Assembly: GCF_004123905.1 (NCBI RefSeq)
Contig: NZ_MZXW01000011.1
Coordinates: 1-64,000, forward strand
DNA: 64,000 bases
Origin: Bradyrhizobium betae
GTDB lineage: Bacteria > Pseudomonadota > Alphaproteobacteria > Rhizobiales > Xanthobacteraceae
Reading direction: 5' to 3'
Below the pieces are notes generated by a model. That model did no database searches. It was not told where the DNA came from and saw nothing but the letters and a program-made list of their open reading frames with translations. The position numbers and the translations under genes were made by a program. Positions 15,616 to 37,427 of the stretch are shown piece by piece; positions within the stretch are counted from its first letter, which is position 1; every line of letters starts with the position of its first letter.

Positions 15616-15664
15616 CACGCTGACGCAATAGTCCAGGCCCGGTTCAAGCTCGGACCAAATCGAC

Positions 15665-18451: not shown

Positions 18452-18474
18452 TCACGCCAACATGCAATAACGGC

Positions 18475-20054: not shown

Positions 20055-20576
20055 TCAAAACTCGTTCGCGATCTTCGAGAGCATCCCGAGCAAGGCTTCC
20101 CGGTTGGCTTGCCCCAAAAGCTCGTTCAGCCGCGCCTCGTGCTTGGTGGCGACGAGCTTTTTCGCCCGCGCCAGCACGGCCTTGCCCTTGTCGGTCAAGA
20201 CCAGGATGTGCGAGCGGCGGTCGTTGGTGGAGCGGATCCGGGCGCAGAGATCGCGGCTCTCGAGATTATCGAGCAGGGCCACGAAATTCGGCCGCAGGAT
20301 GCCGAGGGTGGAGGCGACCTCGGTCTGGTTACGGCCCGGATTCTTCTCGACCAGCAACAGCACGGAGAACTGCGCCGGCGTGAGCTGGAGCGAGGCCATG
20401 CAGCGCAGAAAGTTCTCGAACACTTTGAGCTGCGCCCGCTTCAGCACATAGCCGAGCTGTTCGGACAATTCGCCGAGCTGGAGGGCCTCCGGCTGCGCCT
20501 CGGTCGCGTCCTTGCGGCCCTTGGCCGCGTCGCCGGGCTTTTCAGAAGACTTTTCAGCGGTTTTGGAAACGGTCAT
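20055..20576 (-). CDS. MarR family regulator, CouR-like
   Basis: A 173-residue MarR-type repressor. A 30-residue Lys/Ala-rich N-terminal tail precedes the fold; the winged helix region reads LQLTPAQFSVLLLVEKNPGRNQTEVASTLGILRPNFVALLDNLESRDL, and the wing is IRSTNDRRSHILVLTDKGKAVL. It is divergent from a HAAT-type ABC transporter operon. In R. palustris a MarR protein, CouR, that senses p-coumaroyl-CoA is, as I recall, encoded beside the couSTU transporter genes; the layout here matches. A palindromic operator lies in the shared promoter, implying autoregulation. Identity with CouR is inferred from context, not shown. Confidence 0.85.
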   Translation of the reverse strand: MTVSKTAEKSSEKPGDAAKGRKDATEAQPEALQLGELSEQLGYVLKRAQLKVFENFLRCMASLQLTPAQFSVLLLVEKNPGRNQTEVASTLGILRPNFVALLDNLESRDLCARIRSTNDRRSHILVLTDKGKAVLARAKKLVATKHEARLNELLGQANREALLGMLSKIANEF

Positions 20577-20635
20577 CGCCTCGTGCTCGTGATCCCGCTA
20601 AATTCGGGACGGGTCGTCCGCCCACCCTTGAAGTT

Positions 20636-20669
20636 ATATTTGATAATTGTTATGGACCATATCAAATAT
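20636..20669. promoter_or_regulatory. predicted MarR (CouR-like) operator
   Basis: Two nested inverted repeats lie between the MarR gene and the divergent permease gene. ATATTTGATA (20636-20645) pairs perfectly with TATCAAATAT (20660-20669). The inner site TTGTTATGGACCATATCAA (20647-20665) is a 9+1+9 palindrome with one mismatch. The half-site pattern GTTAT-N5-ATA recurs upstream of the hydratase gene (32242-32256), and a closely related TTAT-N5-ATAAC occurs upstream of pobA (28215-28229). Confidence 0.72.
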
Positions 20670-20752
20670 CGTCAGCGTTTCAATGGCTGTGAGCGGACCG
20701 TCCACCGCAATTGCGGAGGCCGGTCCCGATCTTTGAGGGGGAGCGTCCGGTC

Positions 20753-21793
20753 TTGAATACCACCATCATGCTGTTCCTGGTGCAGGACGGCATCACCAAT
20801 GGCGCGATCTATGCGCTGCTCGGCCTGGCGCTGGTGCTGGTGTTCGCCGTCACCCGCGTCATCCTGATCCCCCAGGGCGAATTCGTCACCTACGGCGCGC
20901 TGACCTATGCCTCGCTGGCCGCGGGCCAGATGCCGGGCACGGCCAAGCTCGCGCTGGCGCTCGGCATCGGCGCCTTCGCCTTCGACCTGTTCGTCGCCCG
21001 CAAGGCGCTGCATGGCCGGCTGATCCTGCGCAGCTTCCTCACCAATGTCGTGCTGCCGGCCATCGTGCTGGCGCTGACCATATACTTCGCCGCCCAGAAG
21101 CCGCCAGTCGCAATCTGCATCGCGCTGTCGCTGGTGATCGTGGCGATGATCGGCCTGTATCTCTACCGCGTTGCGTTCCAGCCGCTGGCGCACACCTCGG
21201 TGCTGGTGCTGCTGATCGCATCGGTCGGCGTCCACCTCGCGCTGCAGGGGCTGGGCCTGCTGTTCTTCGGCGCCGAAGGCCAGCGCGGACCTGCCGTGCT
21301 GTCAGGCTCCTTCACCGCCGGCGCGCTGCGCTTCACCGGCCAAAGCCTCACGGTCTACGGCATCACCATCGCCTTCATCGTCGGGCTCTGGCTGTTCTTC
21401 GGCCTGACACTCTACGGCAAGGCGCTGCGCGCGACCGCGGTGAACCGGCTCGGCGCGCGGCTGGCCGGCATCCGCACCACCCTATCGGGGCAGATCGCCT
21501 TCCTGCTGGCCTCCGTGATCGGCGCGCTGTCCGGCATCATGATCGTGCCGATCACGACGCTCTACTATGACAGTGGCTTCCTGATCGGCCTGAAGGGCTT
21601 TGTCGCCGCGATCATCGGCGGCCTCGTCAGCTACCCCCTCACGGCGATCGCGGCGCTGTTCGTCGGCATCGTCGAGGCGTTCTCGTCCTTCTACGCCTCC
21701 AACTACAAGGAGGTGATCGTCTTCATGCTGCTGATCCCCGTGCTGCTGCTGCGCTCGCTCGCCGCGCCCGCGGTCGAAGAAGAGAAGGACTGA
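20753..21793 (+). CDS. HAAT-family ABC transporter permease (CouSTU-type system)
   Basis: A LivH-type permease of 346 residues with the signature GITNGAIYALLGLALVLVF near the N-terminus and the coupling loop ALRATAVNRLGARLAGIRT near residue 230. I chose TTG 20753 because GAGGGGGAG lies ten bases upstream; ATG 20768 is the alternative. It is followed within eight bases by a permease-ATPase fusion gene and then an ATPase gene. By comparison with R. palustris CouPSTU (from memory), the likely cargo is hydroxycinnamates, with the binding protein encoded 12 kb away at 36276. Confidence 0.88.
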   Translation: MNTTIMLFLVQDGITNGAIYALLGLALVLVFAVTRVILIPQGEFVTYGALTYASLAAGQMPGTAKLALALGIGAFAFDLFVARKALHGRLILRSFLTNVVLPAIVLALTIYFAAQKPPVAICIALSLVIVAMIGLYLYRVAFQPLAHTSVLVLLIASVGVHLALQGLGLLFFGAEGQRGPAVLSGSFTAGALRFTGQSLTVYGITIAFIVGLWLFFGLTLYGKALRATAVNRLGARLAGIRTTLSGQIAFLLASVIGALSGIMIVPITTLYYDSGFLIGLKGFVAAIIGGLVSYPLTAIAALFVGIVEAFSSFYASNYKEVIVFMLLIPVLLLRSLAAPAVEEEKD

Positions 21794-21800
21794 GGCCAAG

Positions 21801-23570
21801 ATGCAGAGCCGGCTTCCCATCCTCGTCTTCGCAGCTCTGATGGCGGCGATCCCGTTTGTTCCGGGCATGCCGCCGTTCTGGATCGTGCTGCTCGACAATA
21901 TCGGCCTGACCGCGCTGGTCGCGATGGGCCTCGTGCTGCTCACCGGCGTCGGCGGCCTGACCTCGTTCGGTCAGGCAGCTTTCGTCGGCTTCGGCGCCTA
22001 CACCACCGCTGTGCTGTCGACAGCCTATGGCCTGTCGCCCTGGCTGACCTTGCCGCTGTCGCTCCTGGTCAGCGGATTGCTGGCCGTGCTGCTCGGCCTC
22101 GTCACCGTCCGCCTCTCCGGCCATTATCTGCCGCTCGGCACGCTCGCCTGGGGGCTCGGGCTGTTTTATCTCTTCAGCAAGCTGGAATTCCTGGGACGCA
22201 ACGACGGCATCTCGGCGATCCCGCCGCTGTCGATCGGTTCGTTCAAGATGCTCTCGCCCGGCTCGATCTATTACGCGATCTGGGTCGCCGTGATCGTCTC
22301 GGCGCTGCTGACGGTGAACCTTTTGGACTCCCGCACCGGCCGCGCCATTCGCGCGCTGCGCCGCGGCCATGTCGCGGCCGAAGCGTTCGGCGTGCATACG
22401 CCGCGCGCGAAAATGCTGGTGTTCATTCATGCCGCGGTGCTCGCCGGCCTCTCCGGATGGCTCTACGCCCACCTTCAGCGCGCCGTGAATCCGACGCCGT
22501 TCGGCGCGCAGGCCGGCATCGAATATCTCTTCATCGCGGTGGTCGGCGGCGCCGGCTATGTCTGGGGCGGTGTGCTGGGGGCGGCGATCGTCGTGGTCCT
22601 GAAAGAGGTGCTGCAAAGCTATCTGCCGCTGATCCTGCCCGGCTCCGGCCAGGTCGAGACCATCGTGTTCGGCATCATGCTGGTGGCGCTGCTTCAGCTC
22701 GCGCCCGGCGGCGTCTGGCCGTGGCTGATGTCGTTCCTGCCCGAGCGCACCGATGGCAAAAAGCCGGACACCTCGCTGAAGCTGGAGCAGCGCACCCGCG
22801 CGCCCAGCCAGGACAGCGTGCTGCTTCATGTCGAGAAGGCGCGAAAACAGTTCGGCGGCGTGATCGCGGTCAACAACGTCTCCTTCGACGTCCAGGCCCG
22901 CGAGATCGTCGCATTGATCGGTCCGAACGGCGCCGGCAAGAGCACGACGTTCAACCTGATCACCGGCGTGCTGTCGGCGACGTCAGGCTCGATCTCGGTG
23001 CTCGGCAAGAAGGTCGACAACGCGCCGCCGCAGGAGATCGTCAAGCTCGGCATCAGCAGGACCTTCCAGCATGTGAAGCTGGTGCCCGACATGACCGTGC
23101 TGGAGAATGTCGCGATCGGCGCGCATCTGCGCGGCCATTCCGGGCCGATCGCCTCGATGCTGCGGCTCGACCGCGCCGACGAAGCCAAGCTGCTCGCCGA
23201 GGCCGCACGCCAGATCGAGCGCGTTGGCCTTGCCGAGCAGATGCACCAGCTCGCAGGCTCGCTCTCGCTAGGACAGCAGCGCATCGTCGAGATCGCGCGT
23301 GCACTGTGCGTCGATCCGATGCTGCTGCTGCTCGACGAACCGGCCGCGGGCCTGCGCCACATGGAGAAGCAGCGGCTCGCCGCGCTCTTGCGTGAACTGC
23401 GCGACGGCGGCATGAGCGTGCTGCTGGTCGAGCACGACATGGGTTTTGTGATGAACCTCGCCGACCGCATCGTGGTGCTCGATTTCGGCACCAAGATCGC
23501 GGAAGGCACGCCCGCCACGATCAAGACCAACCCCGAAGTGATCAAGGCCTATCTCGGAGTGGCGGCATGA
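21801..23570 (+). CDS. fused HAAT permease (LivM) and ATP-binding protein (LivG)
   Basis: A 589-residue fusion. Residues 1-315 are a LivM-type permease with [21 protein letters not shown] and the coupling loop [21 protein letters not shown]. After a linker of about 25 hydrophilic residues, a LivG-type ATPase starts near 340: Walker [13 protein letters not shown], signature [16 protein letters not shown], Walker [12 protein letters not shown] and [18 protein letters not shown]. Both halves look complete, so it should supply one channel half and one nucleotide-binding domain. It overlaps the next gene by four bases. Confidence 0.92.
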
Positions 23571-24298
23571 GCGCGCTGTTGTCCGTCACCGACGCGCATG
23601 TCGCCTATGGCAAGGTCGAGGCGGTGCGCTCGGTCTCGCTCGAGGTCGGCCAAAACCAGATCGTCACCATCGTCGGCGCCAACGGCGCCGGCAAGACCAC
23701 GCTGCTGTCCGCCATCATGGGCATTTTGCCGCTGAAGGGCCGCGTCGCCTTTGCCGGCCATGACCTCGCCCGGCTCGATATCGAGGACCGCGTCGCGATG
23801 GGCCTCGGCCTCGTGCCGGAGCATCGCGAGCTGTTCGTGACCATGAATGTCGAGGACAATCTGGAGCTCGGCGCCTTCCGCATCGAGCGAAGCAAGGCCA
23901 AGGCCTCGATGGAGCGCGTCTACACGCTGTTCCCGCGGCTGAAGGAGCGCCGCAAGCAGCTCGCCGGCACGCTCTCCGGCGGTGAGCAGCAGATGCTGGC
24001 CATGGGCCGCGCGCTGATGGGCGAGCCGAAGCTGCTGATGCTGGACGAGCCGAGCCTCGGTCTCGCTCCCATCATCGTCGCCGACATCTTTCGGATCGTC
24101 ACCGAGCTCCGCGCCAGCGGCGTCTCGGTGCTGCTGGTCGAGCAGAATGCGCAGGCCGCGCTGAAGATCGCCGACCAGGCCTATGTGATGGAGCTCGGCG
24201 AGTTCGTGCTGAGCGGGAAGGCGAGTGACATCGCGGCGAATGAACGCGTTGCGGCAAGTTATCTCGGCTTCCAGCACGAAGGTGCGAGTGTGTTGTAG
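23567..24298 (+). CDS. HAAT-family ABC transporter ATP-binding protein (LivF type)
   Basis: A 243-residue LivF-type ATPase with Walker A GANGAGKTT near residue 43, LSGGEQQMLAMGRAL, Walker B LLMLDEPSLGLAP and VEQNAQAALKIADQAYVMELG. It overlaps the fusion gene (ATGA) and completes the transporter: one permease, one fusion, one ATPase. No binding-protein gene is attached to this operon. Confidence 0.93.
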   Translation: MSALLSVTDAHVAYGKVEAVRSVSLEVGQNQIVTIVGANGAGKTTLLSAIMGILPLKGRVAFAGHDLARLDIEDRVAMGLGLVPEHRELFVTMNVEDNLELGAFRIERSKAKASMERVYTLFPRLKERRKQLAGTLSGGEQQMLAMGRALMGEPKLLMLDEPSLGLAPIIVADIFRIVTELRASGVSVLLVEQNAQAALKIADQAYVMELGEFVLSGKASDIAANERVAASYLGFQHEGASVL

Positions 24299-24324
24299 TT
24301 CCGGGACGCTTCCTCGAACTCAGC

Positions 24325-24426
24325 TGTCATCGCCCGGCCTTGACCGGGCGATCCAGTACTCCGAGGCAGTCGTGATTGACCGATGGGCCGCGGCGTACTG
24401 GATGCCCCGCCTGCGCGGGCATGACA
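24325..24426. repeat. palindromic intergenic repeat (ATCCAGTAC family), copy 3
   Basis: The left half starts TGTCATCGCCCGGCC and ends GATCCAGTAC; the right half starts GTACTGGATGCCCCGCC and ends ATGACA. It has the same architecture as the copies at 3319 and 19945. It separates the ATPase gene from the convergent flavin-oxidase gene. Confidence 0.78.
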
Positions 24427-24463
24427 CCGAGAATGCGGCGATACCATTCCTACGGCCTCATCA

Positions 24464-25084
24464 TTACGCCGTCTTCTCGCCCTTCAACGCCGCAACTTCC
24501 GCCTCCAGCTCCGCGATCCGCGCATCCCTCGCCGCCAGCGCCGCTGCGACATCGGTCGCATCAAATTTCTGCGGGATATGCTGCGGGCAGTTGGTATCCC
24601 ACGCTGTGATCTTGAACAGGATCACCTGCTCCGGCCGGGCGCGGTAGCCTTTCGGCATCAGCGAGTTTGTCAGCGCCTCATCGTCCTCGACCACGCGCGC
24701 CTCACCCCAGAGCTTCACCCGGCGGCGATGGGCGTAGTCCATTACGAAGATGTAGGCCTTGGGATTTTCGGACAGGTTTCCCTGCGTGATGTATTGCCGG
24801 TTGCCGGCATAGTCCGTGAATGCCAGCGTCTGCTTGTCCAGCACCTTCAAAAAGCCCTTCGGGCCGCCGCGGTGCTGGATATAGGGCTGGCCATCGGCCG
24901 AGGCCGTCGCGAAATAGAAGCTGTTGGCGTCAGCCAGGAACGCCGCCAGGTTCTCGTCGACCTCGGTGCGCCAGCCGCGCTGCTCGGCATGAGCATAGCC
25001 TTCGCGGGACCCCTTTCGGGTCTGGATCGATTTCACCGCCGGCGAAAAGGCCACGTCGCTGGCGTAGGTGTGAGTTTCCGTCAT
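24464..25084 (-). CDS. pyridoxamine 5'-phosphate oxidase-family flavoprotein
   Basis: A 206-residue protein of the PNPOx-like split-barrel family. Conserved stretches are FYFATASADGQPYIQHRGG (FMN-binding strand), FTDYAGNRQYITQGNLSENPKAYIFVMDY and RVKLWGEARVV. Such proteins bind FMN and often reduce small electrophiles or haem-like substrates; the substrate here is unknown. The last 25 residues (ARIAELEAEVAALKG) look like a short coiled coil. ATG 25084 has GGAG eight bases upstream. It is divergent from a LysR gene that probably regulates it. Confidence 0.88.
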   Translation of the reverse strand: MTETHTYASDVAFSPAVKSIQTRKGSREGYAHAEQRGWRTEVDENLAAFLADANSFYFATASADGQPYIQHRGGPKGFLKVLDKQTLAFTDYAGNRQYITQGNLSENPKAYIFVMDYAHRRRVKLWGEARVVEDDEALTNSLMPKGYRARPEQVILFKITAWDTNCPQHIPQKFDATDVAAALAARDARIAELEAEVAALKGEKTA

Positions 25085-25168
25085 CGGGACATCTCCTGGA
25101 ATTCCGGCGCATGTCTGCATCTTTCATCCAAAATATGGACCTTTCGTCGTCTAAAACAATCGAGCTTC

Positions 25169-25197
25169 TTGACACTTCATCGTTGCAATATATGCAA
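25169..25197 (+). promoter_or_regulatory. LysR gene promoter with overlapping LysR-type box
   Basis: A consensus -35 TTGACA lies at 25169-25174. TTGCAATATATGCAA (25183-25197) is an inverted repeat containing the LysR-type T-N11-A pattern and overlaps the expected -10 (TATGCA near 25191). The LysR start codon is only about ten bases beyond, with no Shine-Dalgarno, so the message may be nearly leaderless and autoregulated. Confidence 0.6.
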
Positions 25198-25204
25198 TAA
25201 TGCC

Positions 25205-26089
25205 ATGGACCGCTTTGAAGCCATGCACGTCTTCGTCACCGTCGCCGATCTGCGCGGCTTTGCGCCGGCGGCACGAAAACTACGGCTGTCGCCTTCGGCG
25301 GTGACGCGGCTGATCGCGGCGCTGGAGGAGCATCTCGGCGCACGGCTGCTGCAGCGGACCACAAGGCAGGTGAGGCTGACGGATGTCGGCACACGCTATC
25401 TGGAGCGGGCGCGGCGCATCCTCGCCGATGTCGAGGAGGCCGACGGTTTTGCGCGGGAGGAACGCAACCGGCCGAGCGGACGTCTGGTGGTGTCGGCACC
25501 GGTCGGTTTTGGACGGCTGCATGTCGGACCGGTCATGACCGAGTATCTCAAGCGCTACTCCGAGGTCTCCGGCGAGCTCAGGCTCTCGGATAACCTCGTT
25601 AACCTGGTCGAGGACGCCATCGACGCCGCCGTCCGCATTGGACATCTCGCCGACTCCTCACTCGTCGCGCGCCAGGTCGGTGAAATGCGGCGGATCACGG
25701 TGGCGACGCCAGGCTATTTGAAGCGTCACGGCGAGCCGAAGACGCCGGAGGAATTGCTCGCGCACGAGACCATCGCGTTCGGCCCATCCGCGAGCTGGCA
25801 CTTCGTGCAGGACGGCCGCGACATCGAGGGGACGCCGACGCCACGCTTCACCAGCAACAGCGCCGACGCCGCCCTGCAATATGCCGAAGCCGGCGGCGGC
25901 GTGACGCGCGTGCTGGCCTATCAGGCCGCCGAGGGCTTGAGGCGCGGGCGGCTGAAAATCGTGCTGGCGAAGTACGAGCATCCGACGCTGCCGATCCACA
26001 TCGTCTACCCGACCTCGCGCCTGCTCTCGGCCAAGGTGCGCACGTTCATCGATCTCGTGGTGGAGACGGCGGAGTGGAAGTTTGGGTGA
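25205..26089 (+). CDS. LysR family transcriptional regulator
   Basis: A 294-residue LysR-type regulator. The N-terminal helix-turn-helix reads FVTVADLRGFAPAARKLRLSPSAVTRLIAALEEHLGARLLQRTTR, followed by the linker helix and a periplasmic-binding-like effector domain (GRLVVSAPVGFGRLHVGPVM, IDAAVRIGHLADSSLVARQVGE). It belongs to the common single-domain group that controls a divergent oxidoreductase gene. ATG 25205 is the only start that keeps the canonical N-terminus MDRFEAMHVFV; it has no ribosome site. Confidence 0.93.
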   Translation: MDRFEAMHVFVTVADLRGFAPAARKLRLSPSAVTRLIAALEEHLGARLLQRTTRQVRLTDVGTRYLERARRILADVEEADGFAREERNRPSGRLVVSAPVGFGRLHVGPVMTEYLKRYSEVSGELRLSDNLVNLVEDAIDAAVRIGHLADSSLVARQVGEMRRITVATPGYLKRHGEPKTPEELLAHETIAFGPSASWHFVQDGRDIEGTPTPRFTSNSADAALQYAEAGGGVTRVLAYQAAEGLRRGRLKIVLAKYEHPTLPIHIVYPTSRLLSAKVRTFIDLVVETAEWKFG

Positions 26090-26094
26090 GTTCT

Positions 26095-26227
26095 CGTGTC
26101 CCGGACGCGCTGCGGCGTGAAACGCTGCTGCGCAGAGCCGGGACCCAGAAGGCCTTAGGGTGATTGCTGATGGATGGGCCCCGGCTCTGCGGAGCGGCAC
26201 TTCGCGCCGCACCGCGTCCGGGGCACG
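26095..26227. repeat. palindromic intergenic repeat (GTCCGGGACACG family), copy 2
   Basis: Terminal arms 26095-26109 and 26213-26227 (15 bases) pair with one mismatch. The inner arms CAGAGCCGGG and CCCCGGCTCTG also pair. It matches the element at 2399-2509 and lies between convergent genes. Confidence 0.78.
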
Positions 26228-26240
26228 GAGAGAGTGGGGC

Positions 26241-26660
26241 TCACCCCTTCTTCGGCACCACGCGGAACGTCCCGCTTGCCCGCGCGATCACGACATCATC
26301 GGCCTTTGCGAGGCTCTGCGCGAAGCAGATCGTCTTGCCGGTCTTGATCACGTCGCTCTCGATCGCCAACCACTGGCCGATTTCGGCGGAGCCGACGAAA
26401 TCGATCGTGAGCGACACCGTCACGAAGGACGTTTTCCAGTCCGTCATCAGGGCGCAGCTATAGCCCATGGCGTTGTCGGCGAGTGCGGTGATGAGGCCGC
26501 CATGGATCAGGCCGCGGCCGTTGGTGTGCGGCCTTGCCAGCCGCAGGCCGATGATGACGGCCTTGTCGGTGTTCCTGGAGTAGAGCGGCTCCCAGGGCTC
26601 GGTGAGAGGACTCTTGCGGAAGAGCGGCTCGAAGCCGGCGGGGATGTCCGTGGAGATCAT
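26241..26660 (-). CDS. PaaI-type hotdog thioesterase
   Basis: A single-domain hotdog protein of 139 residues. NGRGLIHGGLITALADNAMGYS carries the HGG motif and the catalytic acidic helix typical of PaaI-type acyl-CoA thioesterases, and SFVTVSLTIDFVGSA is the following strand. It would hydrolyse a small acyl- or aryl-CoA; the substrate is unknown. The start could be ATG 26660 (chosen, closest to the usual N-terminus) or ATG 26690 or 26717. Its position between aromatic genes fits a housekeeping role in CoA release, but no operon partner is adjacent. Confidence 0.85.
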   Translation of the reverse strand: MISTDIPAGFEPLFRKSPLTEPWEPLYSRNTDKAVIIGLRLARPHTNGRGLIHGGLITALADNAMGYSCALMTDWKTSFVTVSLTIDFVGSAEIGQWLAIESDVIKTGKTICFAQSLAKADDVVIARASGTFRVVPKKG

Positions 26661-26817
26661 GGGTATCTCGCGTTGCTGCGTTGCCGGCATTGAACGCCAC
26701 GTCGATGACGGTTTCACCGCCTACAAAGTTTTAAACGAGATTTGCGGGGGTGTTTGAAACGGGCGGCGCCGTCGCCACGCCACCAGAGGCCGGAGTGTTG
26801 AATCGAGAGGCCGCGGC

Positions 26818-26850
26818 GTACTGGATGCCCCGCCTTCGCGGGGCATGACA
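26818..26850. repeat. half copy of the ATCCAGTAC-family repeat
   Basis: Only the right half (GTACTGGATGCCCCGCC to GGGGCATGACA) is present. It is followed directly by another repeat at 26871. It shows that the family's half-elements can occur alone. Confidence 0.65.
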
Positions 26851-26870
26851 GTCTTTGTTGAAACGCAGTT

Positions 26871-26961
26871 CCGTAGGGTGGGCAAAGCGAAGCGTGCCCA
26901 CGAGCTTCGCAATTGTCGGAAGACGTGGGCATGGCGCTTCGCGCCTTTTCCCACCCTACGG
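26871..26961. repeat. palindromic repeat (CCGTAGGGTGGG family)
   Basis: Terminal arms CCGTAGGGTGGG (26871-26882) and CCCACCCTACGG (26950-26961) are perfect reverse complements; internal blocks (GCGAAGCG / CGCTTCGC, GTGCCCACG / CGTGGGCAT) pair as well. It lies beyond the 3' end of pobA. Confidence 0.78.
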
Positions 26962-26977
26962 CACCGTCTTCGCCGCC

Positions 26978-28351
<1,374 letters not shown>

Positions 28352-28399
28352 GAGACCGGGCCATCGAAGCCCGCAGTCACAAAGAGGGAGAGACGCGTG

Positions 28400-29416
28400 A
28401 TGAGAAAAGCCTGTCTGGCTTTGCTGCTGGCAGCAAGCGTGACGCCTGCATTTGCGCAGGACAAGCCCGTCGACCTGAAGGTCTCGCACTGGGTGCCGGC
28501 GTCGCACCCGCTGCAGAAATCCCTGGAAGACTGGGTGGCCGCGGTGAACAAGGATTCCGGCGGCACCATCACTGGCAAGGTGTTTCCGGCCCAGCAGCTC
28601 GGCAAGGCTTTCGACCATTACGATATGGCGCGCGACGGCATCGCCGACGTCACCTATGTCAATCCCGGCTACCAGCCCGGCCGCTTCCCGATCATCGGCG
28701 CCGGCGAACTGCCGTTCCTGATCTCGGATGCCAAGGGCGGATCGATGGGCCTGGACGCCTGGTATCGCAAATATGCCGAGAAGGAGATGAAGGACGTCAA
28801 ATACTGCCTCGCCTTCGTCCACTCGCCCTCCTCGTTCCATTCCAAGACCAAGAAGATCGTGATGCCGGAGGACGTGAAGGGCCTGAAGATCCGCCCCGCC
28901 CACGCGACCATGGCGAATTTCGTCACCTCTCTCGGCGGCACCAATGTGCAGTCCTCGGCGCCGGAAGTGCGCGACATCATCGAGCGCGGCGTTGCCGACG
29001 GCGTCACCTTCCCCTGGGGCTCCCTGGTGCTGTTCGGCATCGACAAGGTGACCAAGTACGACATGGAGGCGCCGCTCTACACCACGACCTTCGTGTTCGT
29101 AATGAACAAGGACAAGTACAACGCGATGTCCGACAAGCAGAAGGCCGCGATCGACAAGAACTGCTCGATCGAGATGGCGGGCGTGGTCGGCGAACACTGG
29201 GGCAAGTTCGAGGACGCCGGCGTCGACAAGGTGAAGGCGGAGTCGGACCACGAGGTGTACAAGCTGACGCCCGAGCAAACCGCCGCCTGGAAGAAAGCCG
29301 CCGAACCGCTGGTCAAGACCTGGGGCGACGGCGCCAAGAAGGCGGGCGCTGATCCGGATGCGGCGCTGGCGGACCTGAAGGCGTCGCTGAAGAAGTACAA
29401 CGCGCTGGCGGAGTAG
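28400..29416 (+). CDS. TRAP transporter solute receptor (DctP family, TarP-like)
   Basis: A 338-residue periplasmic receptor. The signal peptide MRKACLALLLAASVTPAFA is cleaved before QDK. DctP-type landmarks are LKVSHWVPASHPLQ, YDMARDGIADVTYVNPGYQPGRFP and the ligand-clamping region MPEDVKGLKIRPAHATMANF with the conserved Arg. It delivers ligand to the membrane pair encoded downstream. The neighbours (pobA, feruloyl-CoA synthetase) suggest aromatic acids; R. palustris TarPQM, as I recall, imports hydroxycinnamates. ATG 28400 has GAGGGAG nine bases upstream, and GTG 28397 is possible. Confidence 0.92.
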   Translation: MRKACLALLLAASVTPAFAQDKPVDLKVSHWVPASHPLQKSLEDWVAAVNKDSGGTITGKVFPAQQLGKAFDHYDMARDGIADVTYVNPGYQPGRFPIIGAGELPFLISDAKGGSMGLDAWYRKYAEKEMKDVKYCLAFVHSPSSFHSKTKKIVMPEDVKGLKIRPAHATMANFVTSLGGTNVQSSAPEVRDIIERGVADGVTFPWGSLVLFGIDKVTKYDMEAPLYTTTFVFVMNKDKYNAMSDKQKAAIDKNCSIEMAGVVGEHWGKFEDAGVDKVKAESDHEVYKLTPEQTAAWKKAAEPLVKTWGDGAKKAGADPDAALADLKASLKKYNALAE

Positions 29417-29512
29417 CCTTGCGTCGAAAGGAGCGCGGCGGCGAGGGGCATCTCGCCGCCGTGCTCCTGCGAGCGGGTTGAACGGTGAGGGGCGCATGGC
29501 GCGTCCTCTCCG

Positions 29513-29652
29513 TCTCCCCGCCTGCGGGGAGAGGGTTGGGGTGAGGGGGAATCTCCGCGGGGCGGTGGCAGTTGGACTCGCGGAGAGTCCCCCTCACCCG
29601 GAATCCGCGCTACGCGCAAATTCCGGCCTCTCCCCGCACGCGGGGAGAGGCG
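29513..29652. repeat. palindromic intergenic repeat (CCTCACCC/GGGGAGAGG family), copy 2
   Basis: Inverted blocks CTCCCCGCCTGCGGGGAGAG...CTCTCCCCGCACGCGGGGAG flank TTGGGGTGAGGGGGA...TCCCCCTCACCC. It sits inside the TRAP operon, between the receptor and small-permease genes, and may lower read-through so that receptor exceeds permease. Confidence 0.75.
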
Positions 29653-29703
29653 AAGGGCCGCCGCCGGGTCGAGAGCGAGAATGACATCACACAGGAAACT
29701 CCC

Positions 29704-30213
29704 ATGAAGCGCTCCTGGATGGACCGCATCATCGATACGATCGAATGGATCGCGGCCGGCTTTGTCGGCATCGTCGCGCTCGACATCTTCCTGTCGGTGC
29801 TGCTGCGCAACACGCTGAACTACGCGATCCCCGACTCGTTCGATATCGGCCGCATGCTGCTCGGCATCCTCATCTTCTGGGGCATTGCGGCGACCTCCTA
29901 TCGCGGCACCCACATCACGGTCGACCTGGTCTGGGGCAATGTCGGGCCGCGCTACCAGCGCTGGATCGACGTGTTCGCAACGCTGGTGCTGCTGTTCGTC
30001 GTGACCGTGCAGACCTGGACGCTGTTCGACAAGGTGCGCGGCACCTACAACGACAACGTCCACACCTTCGACATGCACATGCCGACCTGGCCGTTCTTCG
30101 CGGTCGCCTGGGTCGGTGACGCCTCGGCCGTGCTGCTGATCGCGATCCGCACCTACCGCCTGATCTTCCATCCCGAAGACATGCACGATCCCAAATTGAA
30201 GGCGACGGAGTAA
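29704..30213 (+). CDS. TRAP transporter small permease (DctQ family, TarQ-like)
   Basis: A 169-residue inner-membrane protein with four hydrophobic segments. IAAGFVGIVALDIFLSVLLRN in the first helix and RGTHITVDLVW after the second are DctQ hallmarks. It pairs with the large DctM permease, whose ATG lies two bases after this stop. The ATG at 29704 follows a weak AGGAAA; 287 bases of repeat-bearing sequence separate it from the receptor gene. Confidence 0.92.
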   Translation: MKRSWMDRIIDTIEWIAAGFVGIVALDIFLSVLLRNTLNYAIPDSFDIGRMLLGILIFWGIAATSYRGTHITVDLVWGNVGPRYQRWIDVFATLVLLFVVTVQTWTLFDKVRGTYNDNVHTFDMHMPTWPFFAVAWVGDASAVLLIAIRTYRLIFHPEDMHDPKLKATE

Positions 30214-30215
30214 TC

Positions 30216-31535
30216 ATGAGCACCGATGCCGTCGCCTTAATCGGCTTCGTTTCCCTGTTTGCGTTGATGCTGCTGCGCGTGCCCGTCGGCATGGCGATGG
30301 GCCTCGTCGGCGTGTCCGGCTTCGCCTATCTCGTCAACGGGACGGCAGCGCTGAAGCTGGTCGGCCAGACCTCGATGCGCACGGTCACCGACTACACCTT
30401 CGGCGTCATCCCGATGTTTTTGCTGATGGGCTCCTTCGTCAGCAATTCCGGCATGAGCCGCGAGCTGTTCCGCGCCGCCAACGGTTTCGTCGGGCATCTG
30501 CGCGGCGGGCTCGGCATCGCCACCGTCGGCGCCTGCGGCGGCTTTGCCGCGATTTGCGGCTCGTCGGTTGCGACCGCCGCGACCTTCTCCGCCGTCGCTT
30601 ATCCCGAGATGCGCCGCTTCGGCTATCCGCAATCGTTTGCCACGGGCGTGATCGCGGCAGGCGGAACGCTGGGCGCCATGCTGCCGCCCTCCACCGTGCT
30701 CGCGGTCTACGGCATCATCACCGAGCAGGACATCGGAAAACTCTTCATCGCCGGCATCATTCCGGGCCTGCTGGCGATGACCATGTACATGATCACGATC
30801 TTCCTGATCGGCTATTTCCGCCCCGACTTCCTGCCCAAGGGCAAAGTGCTGCCGTGGCGCGAGCGCTTCGCCGGGCTGAAGGAGATCTGGGCGCCGGTGC
30901 TGCTGTTCGTCTTCGTGATCGGCGGCCTCTACGGCCTGCCCTTCCTGCCGCGTTTCACACCGACCGAAGCCGGCGGCGTCGGCGCGGCCGGCGCCTTCAT
31001 CATCGGCGTGGTCACGGGCCGCCTCGACCGCGAGAAGATTCTGGCCTCGCTGCTCCAGGCGACGCGCACCGCGGCAGCCGTGTTCACTGTGCTGATCGGC
31101 GCTTTGATTTTCGGCTACTTCCTCACGGTGACGCAGACGCCGCAAAAGGTGACGGAATTTTTGACCGGCCTCGGCCTCGGCCCCTACGGCGTTCTGGCGC
31201 TGATCATGGTGATGTATCTCGTGCTCGGCTGCCTGATGGACGCCATGGCGATGATCATCCTGACCGTGCCGATCATCTTCCCCGTCATCACCCATCTTGG
31301 TTTTGACCCGATCTGGTTCGGCGTCATCATCGTGATGACCGTCGAGCTCGGCCTGATTCATCCACCGGTGGGGATGAACGTCTTTGTCATCAAAAGCGTG
31401 GTGAAGGATGTGTCCTTCTCCACGATTTTCAAGGGCGTGATCCCGTTCGTGGCGACCGATCTCGTGCGCCTGGTGATCCTGATCGCCTTCCCGCTGCTGG
31501 CGACCTGGCTGCCGACGCGGATGATGGCGCATTAG
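30216..31535 (+). CDS. TRAP transporter large permease (DctM family, TarM-like)
   Basis: A 439-residue membrane protein with 11-12 hydrophobic segments. FGVIPMFLLMGSFVSNSGMSRELF, GGFAAICGSSVATAATF and AGGTLGAMLPPSTVLAVYG are the conserved DctM regions, and LIHPPVGMNVFVIKSV lies near the C-terminus. It carries out the sodium-driven transport step. It is translated close behind the small permease and followed 12 bases later by a DUF3237 gene. Confidence 0.95.
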   Translation: MSTDAVALIGFVSLFALMLLRVPVGMAMGLVGVSGFAYLVNGTAALKLVGQTSMRTVTDYTFGVIPMFLLMGSFVSNSGMSRELFRAANGFVGHLRGGLGIATVGACGGFAAICGSSVATAATFSAVAYPEMRRFGYPQSFATGVIAAGGTLGAMLPPSTVLAVYGIITEQDIGKLFIAGIIPGLLAMTMYMITIFLIGYFRPDFLPKGKVLPWRERFAGLKEIWAPVLLFVFVIGGLYGLPFLPRFTPTEAGGVGAAGAFIIGVVTGRLDREKILASLLQATRTAAAVFTVLIGALIFGYFLTVTQTPQKVTEFLTGLGLGPYGVLALIMVMYLVLGCLMDAMAMIILTVPIIFPVITHLGFDPIWFGVIIVMTVELGLIHPPVGMNVFVIKSVVKDVSFSTIFKGVIPFVATDLVRLVILIAFPLLATWLPTRMMAH

Positions 31536-31547
31536 AGAGGGAAAGCG

Positions 31548-32009
31548 ATGACCGCACCGATGCTCGGGACGAAATACGTCTTCACCATCACTGCGAAAAT
31601 CGGCGACGTCGTCACCGCCGGCGAAACCGGCATCGGCGTCCGCCGCATCATTCCGATCATCGGCGGCGAAGTGACAGGCGCGATCACCGGCCGTGTGCTG
31701 CCGTTCGGCGCCGACTTCCAGACTATCCGGCCCAACGAGCTGATCGATCTCGAAGCCAAATACGCCTTCGAGACCGACGACGGCGCGATCATCTATGTCG
31801 AGAACAAGGGCATGCGCTTCGGCCCGGTCGAGCTGCTGCAAAAGCTCAAGCGCGGCGAGCCGGTCGATCCCAAGCTGATCTATTTCCGTACCGTGCCGAA
31901 ATTCGAGACGGGGCATGAGAAGTACCGCTGGCTGATGGAGCACATTTTTGTCGGCTCCGCCGCACGGCATGCGGATCGCGTGGTGATCGACGTGCATCAG
32001 GTGGTGTGA
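31548..32009 (+). CDS. DUF3237 domain-containing protein
   Basis: A 153-residue protein that I recognise as DUF3237: an all-beta small domain with YVFTITAKIGDVV at the N-terminus, IIPIIGGEVTGAITGRVLPFGADFQ in the centre, and FRTVPKFETGHEKYRWLMEHIFVGSA near the end. No catalytic function is established for the family as far as I know. It has a good ribosome site (GAGAGGG) and follows the TRAP permease by 12 bases, ahead of the hydroxycinnamate genes, so a role in aromatic uptake or metabolism is plausible. Confidence 0.85.
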   Translation: MTAPMLGTKYVFTITAKIGDVVTAGETGIGVRRIIPIIGGEVTGAITGRVLPFGADFQTIRPNELIDLEAKYAFETDDGAIIYVENKGMRFGPVELLQKLKRGEPVDPKLIYFRTVPKFETGHEKYRWLMEHIFVGSAARHADRVVIDVHQVV

Positions 32010-32053
32010 GGGCTTGAGCGGTCCGCGTTCTAGCCGTGCCTCAATCTCCGCTC

Positions 32054-32180
32054 GTCGTCCCGGCGGAGGCCGGGACCCATAACCACAGGGAGTGGTTTGG
32101 CGAAAACGCGTCGTTCGGTACTCAGACCGCCCACAATTGATGGATTCCGCGGTATGGGTCCCGGCCTCCGCCGGGACGAC
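32054..32180. repeat. perfect palindromic repeat, 28-bp arms
   Basis: Bases 32054-32081 are the exact reverse complement of 32153-32180 (arm core CCCGGCGGAGGCCGGGACCC), with a 71-base loop. It lies between the DUF3237 gene and the hydratase promoter and may insulate the two transcripts. Confidence 0.82.
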
Positions 32181-32223
32181 ATCGAATATGGAGCGCCACA
32201 TGCAGTCCCAAGCCGCCCCCTCC

Positions 32224-32256
32224 TTGACTCCCGCAGAATTCGTTATACAACATAAC
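32224..32256 (+). promoter_or_regulatory. hydroxycinnamate operon promoter and CouR-like operator
   Basis: TTGACT (32224-32229) is a good -35. GTTATACAACATAAC (32242-32256) is an inverted repeat with five-base arms and a five-base centre that covers the -10 region. The start codon of the hydratase gene follows at 32276. The arms match the GTTAT half-site of the MarR intergenic palindrome at 20647. Confidence 0.65.
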
Positions 32257-32275: not shown

Positions 32276-33085
32276 ATGACACAGGGAAACGCCGAGACCG
32301 CTGACGCGGGCGCCTCCGGGCTGTTGAGGATCGAGCGAGCGGACCGGGTTCTGACCGTAGGCCTGAACCGGCCGGCCAAGCGCAATGCGCTCAATGACGG
32401 CATCATCCTCGAAATCGGGGAGTGCTTTACGTCCCTGCCGGAGGATATCGGCGCGGTGGTCATCCACGGTATCGGCGATCATTTCTCCAGCGGCCTCGAC
32501 CTCTCCGAGCTGCAGGACCACGACGCCACCGGCGGTCTGCTCCATTCCCAGATGTGGCACCGGGTGTTCGACCGCATCCAGTACAGCCGCGTGCCTGTGA
32601 TCGCGGCACTGAAGGGTGCCGTGATCGGCGGCGGACTCGAGCTAGCCTGCGCCGCCCACATTCGCGTCGCCGAGCCCTCGACCTATTTTGCGCTGCCGGA
32701 GGGGCAGCGCGGTATCTTCGTCGGCGGCGGCGGCTCGGTGCGGCTGCCGCGGCTGATCGGCGTTGCCAGGATGATGGACATGATGCTGACGGGGCGCGTC
32801 TATACCGCGACCGAAGGCGCCTCCTACGGCTTTGCGCAATACGTGACTGAGACCGGCAACGGGCTCGGCAAGGCGCTGGAGCTTGCCACCAAGGTCGCCT
32901 CCAACGCGCCGCTGACGAATTTCGCCGTGATTCAGGCGCTGCCGATGATCGCGGAGGCCAATCCGCAAACCGGCCTGCTGATGGAATCGCTGATGGCCAC
33001 CGTCGCCCAGAGCGACAAGGAGGCAAAACGCCGGATCCGCGAATTCCTCGAGCACAAGACCGCCAAGGTGAAGCCGAAATCATGA
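32276..33085 (+). CDS. crotonase-family hydratase/lyase (CouA/feruloyl-CoA hydratase-lyase-like)
   Basis: A 269-residue crotonase-fold enzyme. The first oxyanion loop is HFSSGLDLSEL near residue 70, the second GAVIGGGLELACA near 115, and the acidic active-site region ALPEGQRGIFVGGGGSVRLPR follows. With the adjacent feruloyl-CoA synthetase it most likely hydrates hydroxycinnamoyl-CoA, with or without retro-aldol cleavage to a benzaldehyde; the sequence alone does not settle which. The stop overlaps the synthetase start (ATGA), showing tight coupling. A palindromic operator lies just upstream. Confidence 0.87.
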   Translation: MTQGNAETADAGASGLLRIERADRVLTVGLNRPAKRNALNDGIILEIGECFTSLPEDIGAVVIHGIGDHFSSGLDLSELQDHDATGGLLHSQMWHRVFDRIQYSRVPVIAALKGAVIGGGLELACAAHIRVAEPSTYFALPEGQRGIFVGGGGSVRLPRLIGVARMMDMMLTGRVYTATEGASYGFAQYVTETGNGLGKALELATKVASNAPLTNFAVIQALPMIAEANPQTGLLMESLMATVAQSDKEAKRRIREFLEHKTAKVKPKS

Positions 33086-34965
33086 GCGCGCAGCCGTCCT
33101 CTTCCAGCATGGAGCGCGGCGCGAGCACTTCCCCGCTGCGGCCCATTTCGTTCGGCGATCCCGTCGTCGACATCGATCGTCGCGACGACGGCACGATCTA
33201 CCTGCGGCCAAAGCAGTCGCTCGGCGATTATCCCGTCCGCATCACCGACCGTTTGCATCATTGGGCGACGACGACGCCTGATCGCGTCTTCATGGCGCAG
33301 CGCGAAGGCGGCCGCGGCTGGCGCAAGATTACCTATGCCGAGTTGCTCACCGCGAGCCGGCATATTGCCTCAAGCCTGATCCAGCGCGGGCTCTCCGCCG
33401 AACGGCCCGTCGTCATCCTCTCCGGCAATTCGATCGACCATGCGCTGCTGGCCTTCGGCGCATTCTATGCCGGCGTTCCGTTCTGCCCGGTGTCGCCGGC
33501 CTATTCGCTGGTGTCGAAGGATTACGGCAAGCTGTCCTACCTGATGAAGCTGCTGACGCCGGGCCTCGTCTTCGCTGAGGATGCCGACAAGTTTGCGGAT
33601 GCGCTCGCCACAAACGTCTCGCTCGGCACCGAGATCGCTGCGTCCTATGGCCATGTGCCGGGCCGCGACGTCACCTTGCTCGCCGACCTCATGGCGACGC
33701 CGATCCACAGCGATCTCGACGCGATGCACGGCAAGATCGGCCCGGATACGATCGCAAAATTCCTGCTGACATCAGGCTCGACCGGCAATCCCAAGGCCGT
33801 CATCAACACCCAGCGCATGATCTGCGCCAACCAGGTCATGCTGCGCGAAACGCTCGCCTTCCTCAAGGACGAGCCGCCCGTCATCATCGACTGGCTGCCG
33901 TGGAACCACACTTTTGGCGGCAACCACAATATCGGGCTGACGCTCTACAATGGCGGCTCGATGTATCTGGACGCCGGCAAGCCGATGCCCGGCGGCATCG
34001 AGGAGACCGTGCGCAATCTCCAGGAGATTTCGCCGACGGTCTATTTCAACGTCCCCAAGGGCTACGAGTCGCTGCTGCCCTATCTGCGCGACGACCAGGG
34101 CCTGCGCGCAAAATTCTTCGACCGGCTGCATGCGATGTTCTTCTCGGGCGCGGCGCTCTCGCCCTTCGTCTGGGACAGCCTCGACGAGCTCGCGGTGAAG
34201 GAGAAGGGTTATCGCGTGCCGATGCTGACCGGCCTTGGCGCGACCGAGACCGCGCCGTTCTTCATGTCGGTCAATCCGCGCACCAGCCGCTCCGGCCATG
34301 TCGGATTGCCGGTGTCCGGCAACGTCGCCAAGCTCGTGCCGAACAACGGCAAGATGGAAGTGCGCGCCAAGGGCCCGAACGTGATGCCCGGCTACTGGCG
34401 TCAGCCCGAGATCACCGCAAAATCCTTCGACGAGGAAGGATTTTACATGATGGGCGATGCGCTCAAGCCCGCCGATCCCGACGATCTCAACGCCGGTTTC
34501 GATTTCGACGGCCGCGTCAGCGAGGACTTCAAGCTCGGCAGCGGCACCTGGGTCAGCGTTGGTCCCTTGCGCGCGCGCTTCGTTGCGGCCTGCGCGCCGC
34601 TGGTGCGCGACGTCGTCATCGCCGGCATCAACCGCGACGAGGTCTCCGCGCTGGTGCTGCTCGATCTCGACGGCTGCCGGCTGATCAACCCGACGCTGCC
34701 GGCCGACAACCTCACCGTCACCGCCCGCGACCGGCTGGTCCGCGAAGCTTTTCGCGAGCGCCTGACGCAGTTTCTTGCTTCGGCCACGGGATCCTCGACG
34801 CGGATCACCCGCGCGATCCTGCTGGATACGCCGCTGTCGATCGACAAGGGTGAGGTCACCGACAAGGGCTCGATCAACCAGCGTGCGGTGCTGGAGCATC
34901 GCGGTGAGCTGATCGAGGAGCTCTACGCTGCCAATCCGTCGGACCGTGTGATATCGGTCGCTTAA
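33082..34965 (+). CDS. feruloyl-/p-coumaroyl-CoA synthetase
   Basis: A 627-residue AMP-forming ligase of the feruloyl-CoA synthetase type, which activates hydroxycinnamates with ATP and Co[24 protein letters not shown] (phosphate loop near residues 228-240), [31 protein letters not shown] and [18 protein letters not shown] are typical of the family, as is the C-terminal [22 protein letters not shown] with the adenylation Lys. It is coupled to the hydratase gene by a four-base overlap. R. palustris calls the equivalent CouB, by my recollection. Confidence 0.9.
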
Positions 34966-34990: not shown

Positions 34991-35752
34991 ATGTTGTTGA
35001 AGGATCAGGCAGCCATCGTCACCGGCGGCGCATCGGGACTGGGCGCTGCGACCGCGCGAAAACTGGCGGCGCAGGGCGCCAGGGTCGCGGTGTGCGATCT
35101 CAATGCCAAGCTCGCCGAAACCGTCGCCGCCGAGATCAAGGGCGTCGCAATCACCTGCGACGTGTCAGATGCGGCCTCCGCCGAAGCTGCGATCGCACAG
35201 GCAACCAAGGCCCATGGCGCGCCGCGCGTGCTGGTCAACTGCGCCGGCATTGGCGTTGCCAAGCGCGTGGTCGGCCGCGACGGCCCGATGGCGCTCGCCG
35301 ATTTCGACAAGGTGATCAAGGTCAACCTCATCGGCACCTTCAACATGCTGCGCCTCGCCGCAACCGAGATGTCCAAGCTGGAGCCGCAGGCGACCGGCGA
35401 GCGCGGCGTCATCATCAACACGGCGTCCGTTGCCGCCTATGACGGCCAGATCGGCCAGTCGGCCTATTCGGCCTCGAAGGGCGGCATCGTCGGCATGACC
35501 TTGCCGATCGCGCGCGAGCTCGCGCAGTTCGGCGTCCGCGTGCTGACGATTGCGCCCGGCCTGTTCCTCACGCCGCTGCTCGCGAACCTGCCGCAGGAGG
35601 CCCAGGACTCGCTCGCCGCCGCGATCCCGTTCCCGCGCCGGCTCGGCCACGCGGATGAATTCGCCGCACTCGCGCTGCACATGGTCGAGAATTCCTACCT
35701 GAACGGCGAAGTGGTCCGCCTTGACGGCTCGCTGCGCATGGCGCCGAAATAG
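34991..35752 (+). CDS. SDR oxidoreductase, 3-hydroxyacyl-CoA dehydrogenase type 2 (HSD10)-like
   Basis: A 253-residue short-chain dehydrogenase. TGGASGLG at residues 11-18 binds NAD, and a CDV segment follows the third strand with Asp, favouring NAD over [32 protein letters not shown] and YSASKGG (catalytic Tyr and Lys near 158-162) complete the site. The pattern, including [12 protein letters not shown] and [13 protein letters not shown], is that of HSD10-like 3-hydroxyacyl-CoA dehydrogenases. It may oxidise the 3-hydroxy-phenylpropionyl-CoA formed by the hydratase. AGGAG precedes the ATG; the gene is in line with the synthetase. Confidence 0.88.
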
Positions 35753-36275: not shown

Positions 36276-37427
36276 ATGAAAAGCTTTTACCTGACCGCCG
36301 CCATCACTGCGGCGACGCTTGCCCTGCCGGCGCTGCCTGCGCTGGCCCAGACCGCCGAGATCACCATCGGCATCACCACCACCACGACCGGTCCGGGCGC
36401 AGCCCTCGGCATTCCCGAGCGCAACGCGCTGGAGTTCGTGCCGAAGGAAATCGGCGGCGTGCCGCTGAAGGTGATCGTGCTCGACGACGGCGGCGATCCT
36501 ACCACGGCAACCACCAACGCCCGCCGCTTCGTGACCGAATCCAAGGCCGACATCATCATGGGCTCGGCGCTGACGCCGCCGACGATCGCGGTCTCCAACG
36601 TCGCCAACGAAGCCGGCATTCCGCATTTCGGCCTGGCGCCGTTCCCGATCACCCCGGAACGCATGAAGTGGTCGGTGGCGATGCCGCAGCCGATTCCGAT
36701 CATGGGCAAGGTGCTCTACGAGCACATGAAGTCGAAGGGCGTGAAGACGGTCGGCTATATCGGCTATTCCGACTCGTACGGCGACCTCTGGTTCAACGAC
36801 TTCAAGGCCCAGGGCGTACCGATGGGCATGACCCTTGCGGACGAAGAACGGTTCGCGCGGCCCGACACGTCGGTCACCGGACAGGTCCTGAAGCTCGTCG
36901 CCGCCAATCCCGACGCAATCCTGGTCGGCGCCTCCGGCACCGCGGCCGCGCTGCCACAGACCGAGCTGCGCGAGCGCGGCTACCAGGGCCTGATCTACCA
37001 GACCCACGGTGCTGCCAGCATGGACTTCATCCGCATCGCCGGTAAGGCCGCGGAAGGCGTCCTGATGGCCTCGGGCCCGGTGATGGACCCGGAGGATCAG
37101 CCGGACGAAGCCGCCACCAAGAAACCCGGCCTCGCGCTCAACACCGCCTATGAGGGCAAGTACGGTCCGAACAGCCGCAGCCAGTTCGCCGGCCATTCCT
37201 ACGACGCGTTCGAGATCCTGAAGCGCGTCATCCCGACGGCGCTGAAAACCGCAAAACCCGGCACGCCGGAATTCCGCGAAGCGATCCGCCAGGCGCTGCT
37301 GTCGGAGCGGGAAATCGCCGCAAGCCAGGGTGTCTACAATTTCACCGAAAAGGACCGCTACGGCCTGGACGACCGCTCGCGCATCCTGCTCACGGTGAAG
37401 AACGGCAAGTACACGCTGGTGAAGTAG
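36276..37427 (+). CDS. HAAT-family ABC substrate-binding protein (CouP-like)
   Basis: A 383-residue periplasmic binding protein. The signal peptide (about 24 residues) ends at LPALAQ; the mature part has ITIGITTTTTGPGAALGIPE, VLDDGGDPTTATTNARRFV, GSALTPPTIAVSNVANEAG and TVGYIGYSDSYGDLWF. It is the last gene of the hydroxycinnamate run and has no transport genes beside it, whereas the ABC operon at 20753-24298 lacks a binding protein. Together they probably form one CouPSTU-type importer. AAGGGAGGAATAATAG precedes the ATG; a clear terminator follows. Confidence 0.9.
   Translation: MKSFYLTAAITAATLALPALPALAQTAEITIGITTTTTGPGAALGIPERNALEFVPKEIGGVPLKVIVLDDGGDPTTATTNARRFVTESKADIIMGSALTPPTIAVSNVANEAGIPHFGLAPFPITPERMKWSVAMPQPIPIMGKVLYEHMKSKGVKTVGYIGYSDSYGDLWFNDFKAQGVPMGMTLADEERFARPDTSVTGQVLKLVAANPDAILVGASGTAAALPQTELRERGYQGLIYQTHGAASMDFIRIAGKAAEGVLMASGPVMDPEDQPDEAATKKPGLALNTAYEGKYGPNSRSQFAGHSYDAFEILKRVIPTALKTAKPGTPEFREAIRQALLSEREIAASQGVYNFTEKDRYGLDDRSRILLTVKNGKYTLVK

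Follow-up and report, generated by a model that had tools for sequence, protein, structure and literature searches.

Does one repressor tie together the dispersed promoters of a hydroxycinnamate-degradation locus in Bradyrhizobium betae? The locus lies in the stretch analysed here (the window), which is the first 64 kb of the 76.8-kb contig C22 (NZ_MZXW01000011.1) of an 8.62-Mb genome (GCF_004123905.1). A sequence-only reading had proposed that a CouR-like repressor of the MarR family controls three promoters in it through a shared TTAT-N5-ATA motif. Orthology, gene order, conservation of the sites, their absence where a close couR is absent, and genome-wide scans all strongly favor such a repressor linking dispersed promoters, and comparison gives good support to a predicted regulon that spans uptake, ring hydroxylation and ring cleavage. 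Very probably, the promoters of couR and the adjoining ATP-binding cassette (ABC) transporter genes, of pobA and tarPQM, of couAB, of an unlinked amidohydrolase gene and of pcaH all answer to CouR.

Part of this could be expected. In Rhodopseudomonas palustris CGA009, couAB and the ABC and tripartite ATP-independent periplasmic (TRAP) transporters are reported to be under CouR (PMC3610893). The genes RPA1780-RPA1794 of that organism form the same set as in the window: CouR, couAB, couP, ABC genes, tarPQM and, listed alongside tarPQM, a 4-hydroxybenzoate hydroxylase gene (PMC3610893, PMC3223731). Because the gene set is the same and CouR controls couAB and both transporters there, the core of the regulon was already known by orthology. 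What is new here relative to R. palustris is the predicted CouR control of pobA, the unlinked amidohydrolase gene and pcaH. We found no mention of CouR controlling any of these three in the literature covered, a coverage that stops short of the primary R. palustris CouR papers, so that an earlier mention is possible.

Identity of the repressor

By sequence comparison, the MarR-family gene at 20055..20576 (minus strand; Pfam MarR) is couR, the orthologue of R. palustris CouR. Its product matches the R. palustris protein (PDB 6c28) over its full length, residues 1-173, with a phmmer E of 8.4e-68, and the second-best PDB chain reaches only 3.9e-10. The alignment covers the recognition-helix region, and the stretch GILRPNFVA is identical to 6c28. 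As expected of an R. palustris-type CouR, the gene is linked to couAB and to ABC and TRAP uptake genes, and exact, conserved palindromes at couAB and at its own promoter form predicted inverted-repeat operators. The nearest named matches to the window protein come from Bradyrhizobium, at 98% identity. A 96% identical CouR is encoded on a contig titled Frankia sp. RB7 (JAUEPE010000004.1, L026), an organism name that looks wrong.

Predicted operator sites in the window

The three inverted repeats named by the sequence-only reading, GTTATGGACCATATC at 20649-20663, ATTATATCATATAAC at 28215-28229 and GTTATACAACATAAC at 32242-32256, are all present where stated, although the first descriptions of the first two need amending. 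The repeat beside the MarR gene carries one mismatch and is the second, weaker copy of a predicted tandem operator (TTATGGACCATAT, 20650..20662); the perfect copy, which had been missed, is TTATATTTGATAA at 20634..20646, 16 bp away and likewise between couR and the ABC genes. Tandem operators with this 16-bp offset are found in 48/48 family couR rows and in 80/80 named loci, a count that leaves out L151 (cut upstream) and L196 (a 32% homologue). One couR upstream region, that of genome G114 (L360), has two copies with one mismatch each and no exact copy. The stretch 20634-20670, which is more strongly conserved than the DNA on either side, contains in addition a longer inverted repeat, ATATTTGATA-15-TATCAAATAT; two dimers bound to it may give graded autoregulation.

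The other two sites had been placed over the -10 elements of pobA and of the couA operon. The first, the predicted operator TTATATCATATAA at 28216..28228, is indeed beside pobA, but that is half the picture, because it stands between divergent pobA (start about 28150, minus strand) and tarP (28400, plus strand). The second, TTATACAACATAA at 32243..32255, lies 20 bases ahead of the couA start codon. A sigma-70 consensus scan found no promoter-like match at either site, so that placement over a -10 element is a supposition; the right half of 28216-28228 is TATAAT when read towards pobA and TATAAC when read towards tarP. Palindromes with one mismatch also occur at 25188-25200, before a LysR gene, and at 6005-6017.

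Conservation of the sites across the family

CouR, CouA, PobA and TarP were searched for in 248 genomes of the family, and CouR was found at E<=1e-40 in 77 of them. Sites were tallied in a chosen family set of 53 genomes including the window's, with a CouR identity cut of 50%, and in a second sample of 80 named loci; genomes repeated in rows L293-L296 were counted once. The couR gene is preceded by an exact site in 47 of 48 genomes of the family set (G114 being the exception) and in all 80 named loci, and couA in 40 of 40, counting family genomes whose available upstream DNA reaches 120 bases. The couA of G198, with less than 120 bases, was left out of these 40, and the available part holds an exact site; G074, whose CouR (47% identity) falls below the cut and outside the 48, also has one. 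For tarP the family count is 32/37, and the 53 named loci divide into 51 exact, one with one mismatch and one with none. For pobA the family count is 38/50, and 46 of 47 named loci are exact, the last having one mismatch. The pobA and tarP counts are not independent, because the two genes mostly share one site.

Exceptions are concentrated in a few genomes. The tarP genes that lack an exact site are those of G207, G095 and G114 (one mismatch each), G141 (none) and G043 (none, with tarP elsewhere). The 12 pobA genes that lack one are the linked copies of G207, G095 and G114 (again one mismatch each), the linked copy of G141 (none), four lying elsewhere in genus group g40, and four in g25. Two observations on gene loss belong here. 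In G141 (L139) tarP remains, and tarM, DUF3237 and the pobA/tarP operator were not found. Eight g25 genomes (L162-L169) retain couR, the ABC genes, couP and pobA together with operators and have no couA at E<=1e-85 and no tarP at E<=1e-70, which leaves the source of an inducing coenzyme A (CoA) ester unexplained.

Does the site depend on this particular CouR? In genomes without a close couR, none of 20 pobA and none of 20 tarP upstream regions (300 bases each) contains a site, even with one mismatch allowed. The search found no couR in four g25 genomes; none of these has an exact site at pobA, and two carry a one-mismatch version there. The absence of sites at pobA and tarP where a close couR is absent implies that the sites come and go with this CouR. 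"Without couR" has to be read as without close couR, because G208, G071 and G037 hold more distant CouR-like genes (32%, 36% and 42% identity); these genes lie beside homologues of the cluster, and those of G208 and G071 may use another operator. These distant relatives, together with the fact that counts from related genomes are not independent, weigh against the dependence of the sites on CouR.

A second possibility is that some or all of the sites are read by a different MarR paralogue. The window genome encodes three CouR paralogues, 37-40% identical, and the one on contig C5 (37%) has a one-mismatch TTAT-N5-ATAA before its own gene, between that gene and a divergent Peripla_BP_6 gene (L193, G000:C5:172878-177500); one further exact palindrome lies beside a weaker MarR match on C21. 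Upstream of the other two paralogues, however, the 300 bases that precede the matched stretch contain no motif even when one mismatch is allowed. In addition, the sites occur where couR does and are missing where no close couR exists, and the best-conserved site is the one that adjoins couR. A paralogue in place of CouR is thus quite improbable. Because of the one-mismatch motif before the C5 gene, some cross-talk between CouR and that paralogue is possible, which also counts against a single reader of the sites. The C5 paralogue is perhaps another aromatic-uptake switch.

Chance and genome-wide counts

Could the sites simply be AT-rich -10 elements that happen to resemble palindromes? In its loose form, TTATNNNNNATA (TTAT-N5-ATA), the motif has 79 matches genome-wide and a reversed control pattern also has 79, so the loose form was rejected as a regulon signature; what stands of the shared motif is the full, conserved TTAT-N5-ATAA operator. 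Within the window the loose form is enriched (9 matches vs 0.37 expected, with 0 of 100 shuffles reaching 9), as is the full palindrome TTATNNNNNATAA when one mismatch is tolerated (6 vs 1.63 expected, a count that none of 100 shuffles attains). Of these six matches, three are exact, all in the cou cluster. Matched on both strands, the exact palindrome occurs at 15 places in the genome, and the three in the cluster fall within 12 kb (Poisson P about 1.5e-6, for a 12-kb stretch picked after the sites were seen).

Beyond the cluster, two exact sites, neither of them part of the sequence-only proposal, precede genes of the same pathway, the amidohydrolase gene (contig C4) and pcaH (C1), which brings the pathway promoters to five of the 15 places. 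The ten other exact sites are unexplained and count against the proposed regulon. Four of them have annotated neighbors (an SGL protein, a Cons_hypoth698 protein, a LysR gene with a major facilitator superfamily transporter, and phosphomannomutase) that show no pathway link, and they were dropped as further targets.

Six other complete genomes were scanned whole for the exact palindrome. The 5.33-Mb genome of G108 has four sites in all, at couR, couA, tarP/pobA and the amidohydrolase gene. The others have more, with those at regulon promoters in brackets: G153 8 (5), G122 13 (5), G138 13 (4), G199 8 (4) and G207 8 (3). The seven genomes including the window's have 69 exact sites between them, of which 30 fall at regulon promoters. 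When the 39 non-regulon sites were compared, two pairs had long common flanks (G199/G207 and the window genome/G153, both about 89% identity), and both are pairs of near relatives; two more pairs had only a short common stretch, away from the site. The CouR of G108 matches the R. palustris chain with an E of 1.1e-82, and genus group g28 is for this reason called Rhodopseudomonas-like.

In the six scanned genomes, too, the motif and its reversed control occur at about equal frequency; the information therefore lies in where the sites are and not in how many there are. Equal frequency genome-wide and half-sites that look like -10 boxes are what a chance origin would predict. All four exact sites of G108 fall in regulon promoters, however, and none occurs in the 40 upstream regions taken as controls from pobA and tarP in genomes without close CouR, so that chance is very hard to credit and an operator recognized by CouR is the preferred explanation.

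Control of pobA or of tarPQM

The gene pobA (26978..28150, minus strand), encoding 4-hydroxybenzoate 3-monooxygenase, is recognized by NCBIfam TIGR02360 at 706.6 bits vs a cut-off of 538.7, and its start reads as a TTG preceded by GGAGG. Facing it are the genes of a tarPQM-like TRAP transporter (28400..31535, plus strand; a binding protein and small and large permeases, Pfam DctP, DctQ and DctM). The site between them is predicted to serve both. Its assignment to pobA is the less firm of the two, because pobA usually shares the site with tarPQM, and the site might instead belong to tarPQM alone, with pobA a bystander under a regulator of its own, for example the LysR protein encoded at 25205-26089.

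Several observations fit such an arrangement. Where pobA is missing from the locus, tarP keeps the site in 6 of 7 named loci, in 4 of 4 g40 genomes and in G212. The pobA genes that lie away from the cluster in g40 (65-68% identical) have the site in none of four genomes, and G141, which has lost tarM, keeps a linked pobA with no site; these points speak against CouR control of pobA. In one g25 genome, G179, the site lies at -226 from pobA and at -56 from couP.

The exact site nevertheless stays at pobA when tarP is not alongside, in 11 of 11 genomes (G043, G059, G007 and eight g25). The gene facing pobA is DUF3237 in G043, couA in G059 and G007, and couP in the eight g25 genomes. Its position relative to pobA is -62/-63 in six g25 genomes and -81 in a seventh. 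G059 and G007 have two separate sites between pobA and couA, and in the named loci the site lies mostly at -77/-78 from pobA vs mostly -184 to -199 from tarP. A site for tarPQM alone is on this evidence unlikely, and pobA is probably also controlled by CouR.

The unlinked amidohydrolase and the side-chain route

The amidohydrolase gene (Amidohydro_2) lies at C4:190771-191652, and an exact site at C4:191684 stands about 44 bases before it. Its product has the superfamily domain PF04909 (E 1.4e-58). Because the gene is far from the cou cluster and tied to it by the operator alone, it would easily be missed. A close orthologue (E<=1e-170) occurs in 68 genomes, and couR is present in 68 of 68 (Fisher 1.5e-51, with relatedness ignored). 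Sites were counted in 54 of these genomes, and 40 have an exact one before the gene; several genera have a longer palindrome, ATTGATTAT-N5-ATAATCAAT, with outer ATTGA...TCAAT. Homologues also appear within cou loci of other genera: that of G037 (56%) shares a row with couR-like, couA and couB genes, and that of G117 (65%) immediately precedes couA. Two findings weigh against a fixed association. The site is missing in 14 of the 54 genomes (all nine g26 genomes examined, both g6, G043, G114 and G179), and among the five couA loci of other genera the homologue is adjacent in G037 and G117 and not in G071, G017 or G004.

What might this enzyme do? One clue is CouA (32276..33085, plus strand; Pfam ECH_1), a member of the enoyl-CoA hydratase family. 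Hydroxycinnamoyl-CoA hydratase-lyase, which forms an aldehyde, lacks one of the two hydratase catalytic glutamates. CouA has both acidic hydratase positions, in GLELA and LPEGQRG, which we take to be the catalytic glutamates. Among the best 60 of its 204 PDB matches no lyase is named, and the top ones, 3hin and then 4izb, are plain hydratases.

In R. palustris an aldehyde route is described, via RPA1786 and the dehydrogenase RPA1206 (PMC12366328). In Rhodococcus jostii RHA1, the last side-chain enzyme is CouO, a member of the amidohydrolase superfamily that gives the aromatic acid (PMC4737184). The apparent closeness of CouA to plain hydratases and the analogy with CouO lead us to propose a hydrolytic route. 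The hydroxyacyl-CoA dehydrogenase step would fall to a short-chain dehydrogenase (34991..35752, plus strand; Pfam adh_short), which adjoins couB in L118-L123 (6/6, all of the window's genus). It was not found in the six g28 clusters L135-L140, so that a hydrolytic route in g28 would need another dehydrogenase. About evenly balanced, in our judgment, is the full proposal that one CoA-thioester sensor commits the whole p-coumarate-to-ring-cleavage route in Bradyrhizobium and related genera, with the side chain removed by hydratase, dehydrogenase and the unlinked CouO-like amidohydrolase to give 4-hydroxybenzoate directly, and not by the aldehyde route of R. palustris.

The pcaH site

The second unlinked target is pcaH on contig C1, for the beta subunit of protocatechuate 3,4-dioxygenase (TIGR02422), with an exact site at C1:597443, 64 bases before the gene. 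A match to pcaH was found in 119 genomes, and 30 loci were counted. Seventeen have an exact site: 14 of 15 in the window's genus, 3 of 8 in g40 and 0 of 7 in others. Its absence from 5 of 8 g40 loci and from all seven loci of other genera speaks against pcaH as a general member, and the distribution marks the predicted pcaH site as a newer or less stable addition to the regulon.

Other genes of the locus

The ABC transporter genes of branched-chain type (20753..24298, plus strand; Pfam BPD_transp_2 and ABC_tran; synteny with couR) are a CouSTU-like set of permease, fused permease-ATPase and ATPase. Behind pobA is a 4HBT-type thioesterase gene (26241..26717, minus strand; Pfam 4HBT), the positional counterpart of RPA1780, which is listed with RPA1781 in PMC3223731. 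Behind tarM is a gene for a DUF3237 protein (31548..32009, plus strand; Pfam PF11578) that is present in many cluster loci. The acyl-CoA ligase gene couB (33082..34965, plus strand) is assigned from Pfam AMP-binding and synteny, and a couP-like ABC binding-protein gene (Pfam Peripla_BP_6) follows at 36276..37427 on the plus strand. The 250 bp upstream of couP contain no operator in the window, nor in the other loci read apart from three in g25 (L166-L168), and couP was dropped as an operator-bearing promoter.

Compared with most other genera examined, the block from pobA to couP is here inverted relative to couR and the ABC genes, with the LysR gene (25205..26089) lying between the ABC genes and pobA. 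Orthologues of this LysR gene are also near tarP in g40 (L155, L157, L159), for which reason it may be a second regulator of the locus. Beside couR, at 14374-19924, are three successive genes for periplasmic binding proteins of branched-chain type and then a MOFRL-family gene; the last of the three and the MOFRL gene remain adjacent to couR in many named loci.

A proposed regulon set by one CoA-thioester sensor

How would such a regulon work? A CouR dimer would bind TTAT-N5-ATAA inverted repeats over the start regions of dispersed promoters. In the window these would be the couR/ABC promoters (two adjacent copies), the pobA/tarPQM promoters (one common site) and that of couAB and the genes behind it; outside the window, those of the unlinked amidohydrolase gene and pcaH. 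Without substrate all of them would be shut. Basal uptake and CouB would then yield p-coumaroyl-CoA (or feruloyl-CoA), the CoA ester would release CouR, and uptake, side-chain removal, 4-hydroxybenzoate hydroxylation and protocatechuate cleavage would be turned on together. The presumed ligand, p-coumaroyl-CoA, is taken over by analogy from R. palustris CouR, and the repression by a dimer and the release by the CoA ester from the CouR proteins of R. palustris and RHA1. We infer CouR binding, repression through promoter block, the extent of the operons and what the dehydrogenase and amidohydrolase do; the exact mode of the transcription block is itself inferred, because the promoter scan found nothing at two sites despite their TATAAT- and TATAAC-like halves. 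The sequence-only reading had included pobA in one regulon, which the 11 genomes that keep the site without tarP bear out and the site-less unlinked copies of g40 make less firm.

RHA1 offers a parallel in mechanism. Its CouR is likewise a MarR repressor of hydroxycinnamate genes with an inverted-repeat operator and a 5-bp spacer, and it is released by p-coumaroyl-CoA (PMC4737184). The operators differ, with cATTGA-N5-TCAATg there vs a core of TTAT-N5-ATAA at the sites in the window. The RHA1 and R. palustris proteins are 36% (PMC9594313) or about 25% (PMC4737184) identical, and control of ring-cleavage genes by RHA1 CouR is not described in the passages of PMC4737184 consulted. HcaR, FerC and FerR follow the same logic of a repressor that senses a CoA thioester (PMC10458429), a likeness drawn from their description.

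On these findings, a repressor known for local action would govern a small scattered regulon, and the signal is unusually clean in G108, whose four exact sites all belong to one pathway. The findings also name a candidate enzyme for side-chain removal, so that the choice between an aldehyde route and a hydrolytic, beta-oxidation-like one becomes testable. R. palustris and Bradyrhizobium are of interest for lignin use and root colonization. If pobA and pcaH are under CouR, ring cleavage would be readied at the first intermediate, before 4-hydroxybenzoate or protocatechuate appear.

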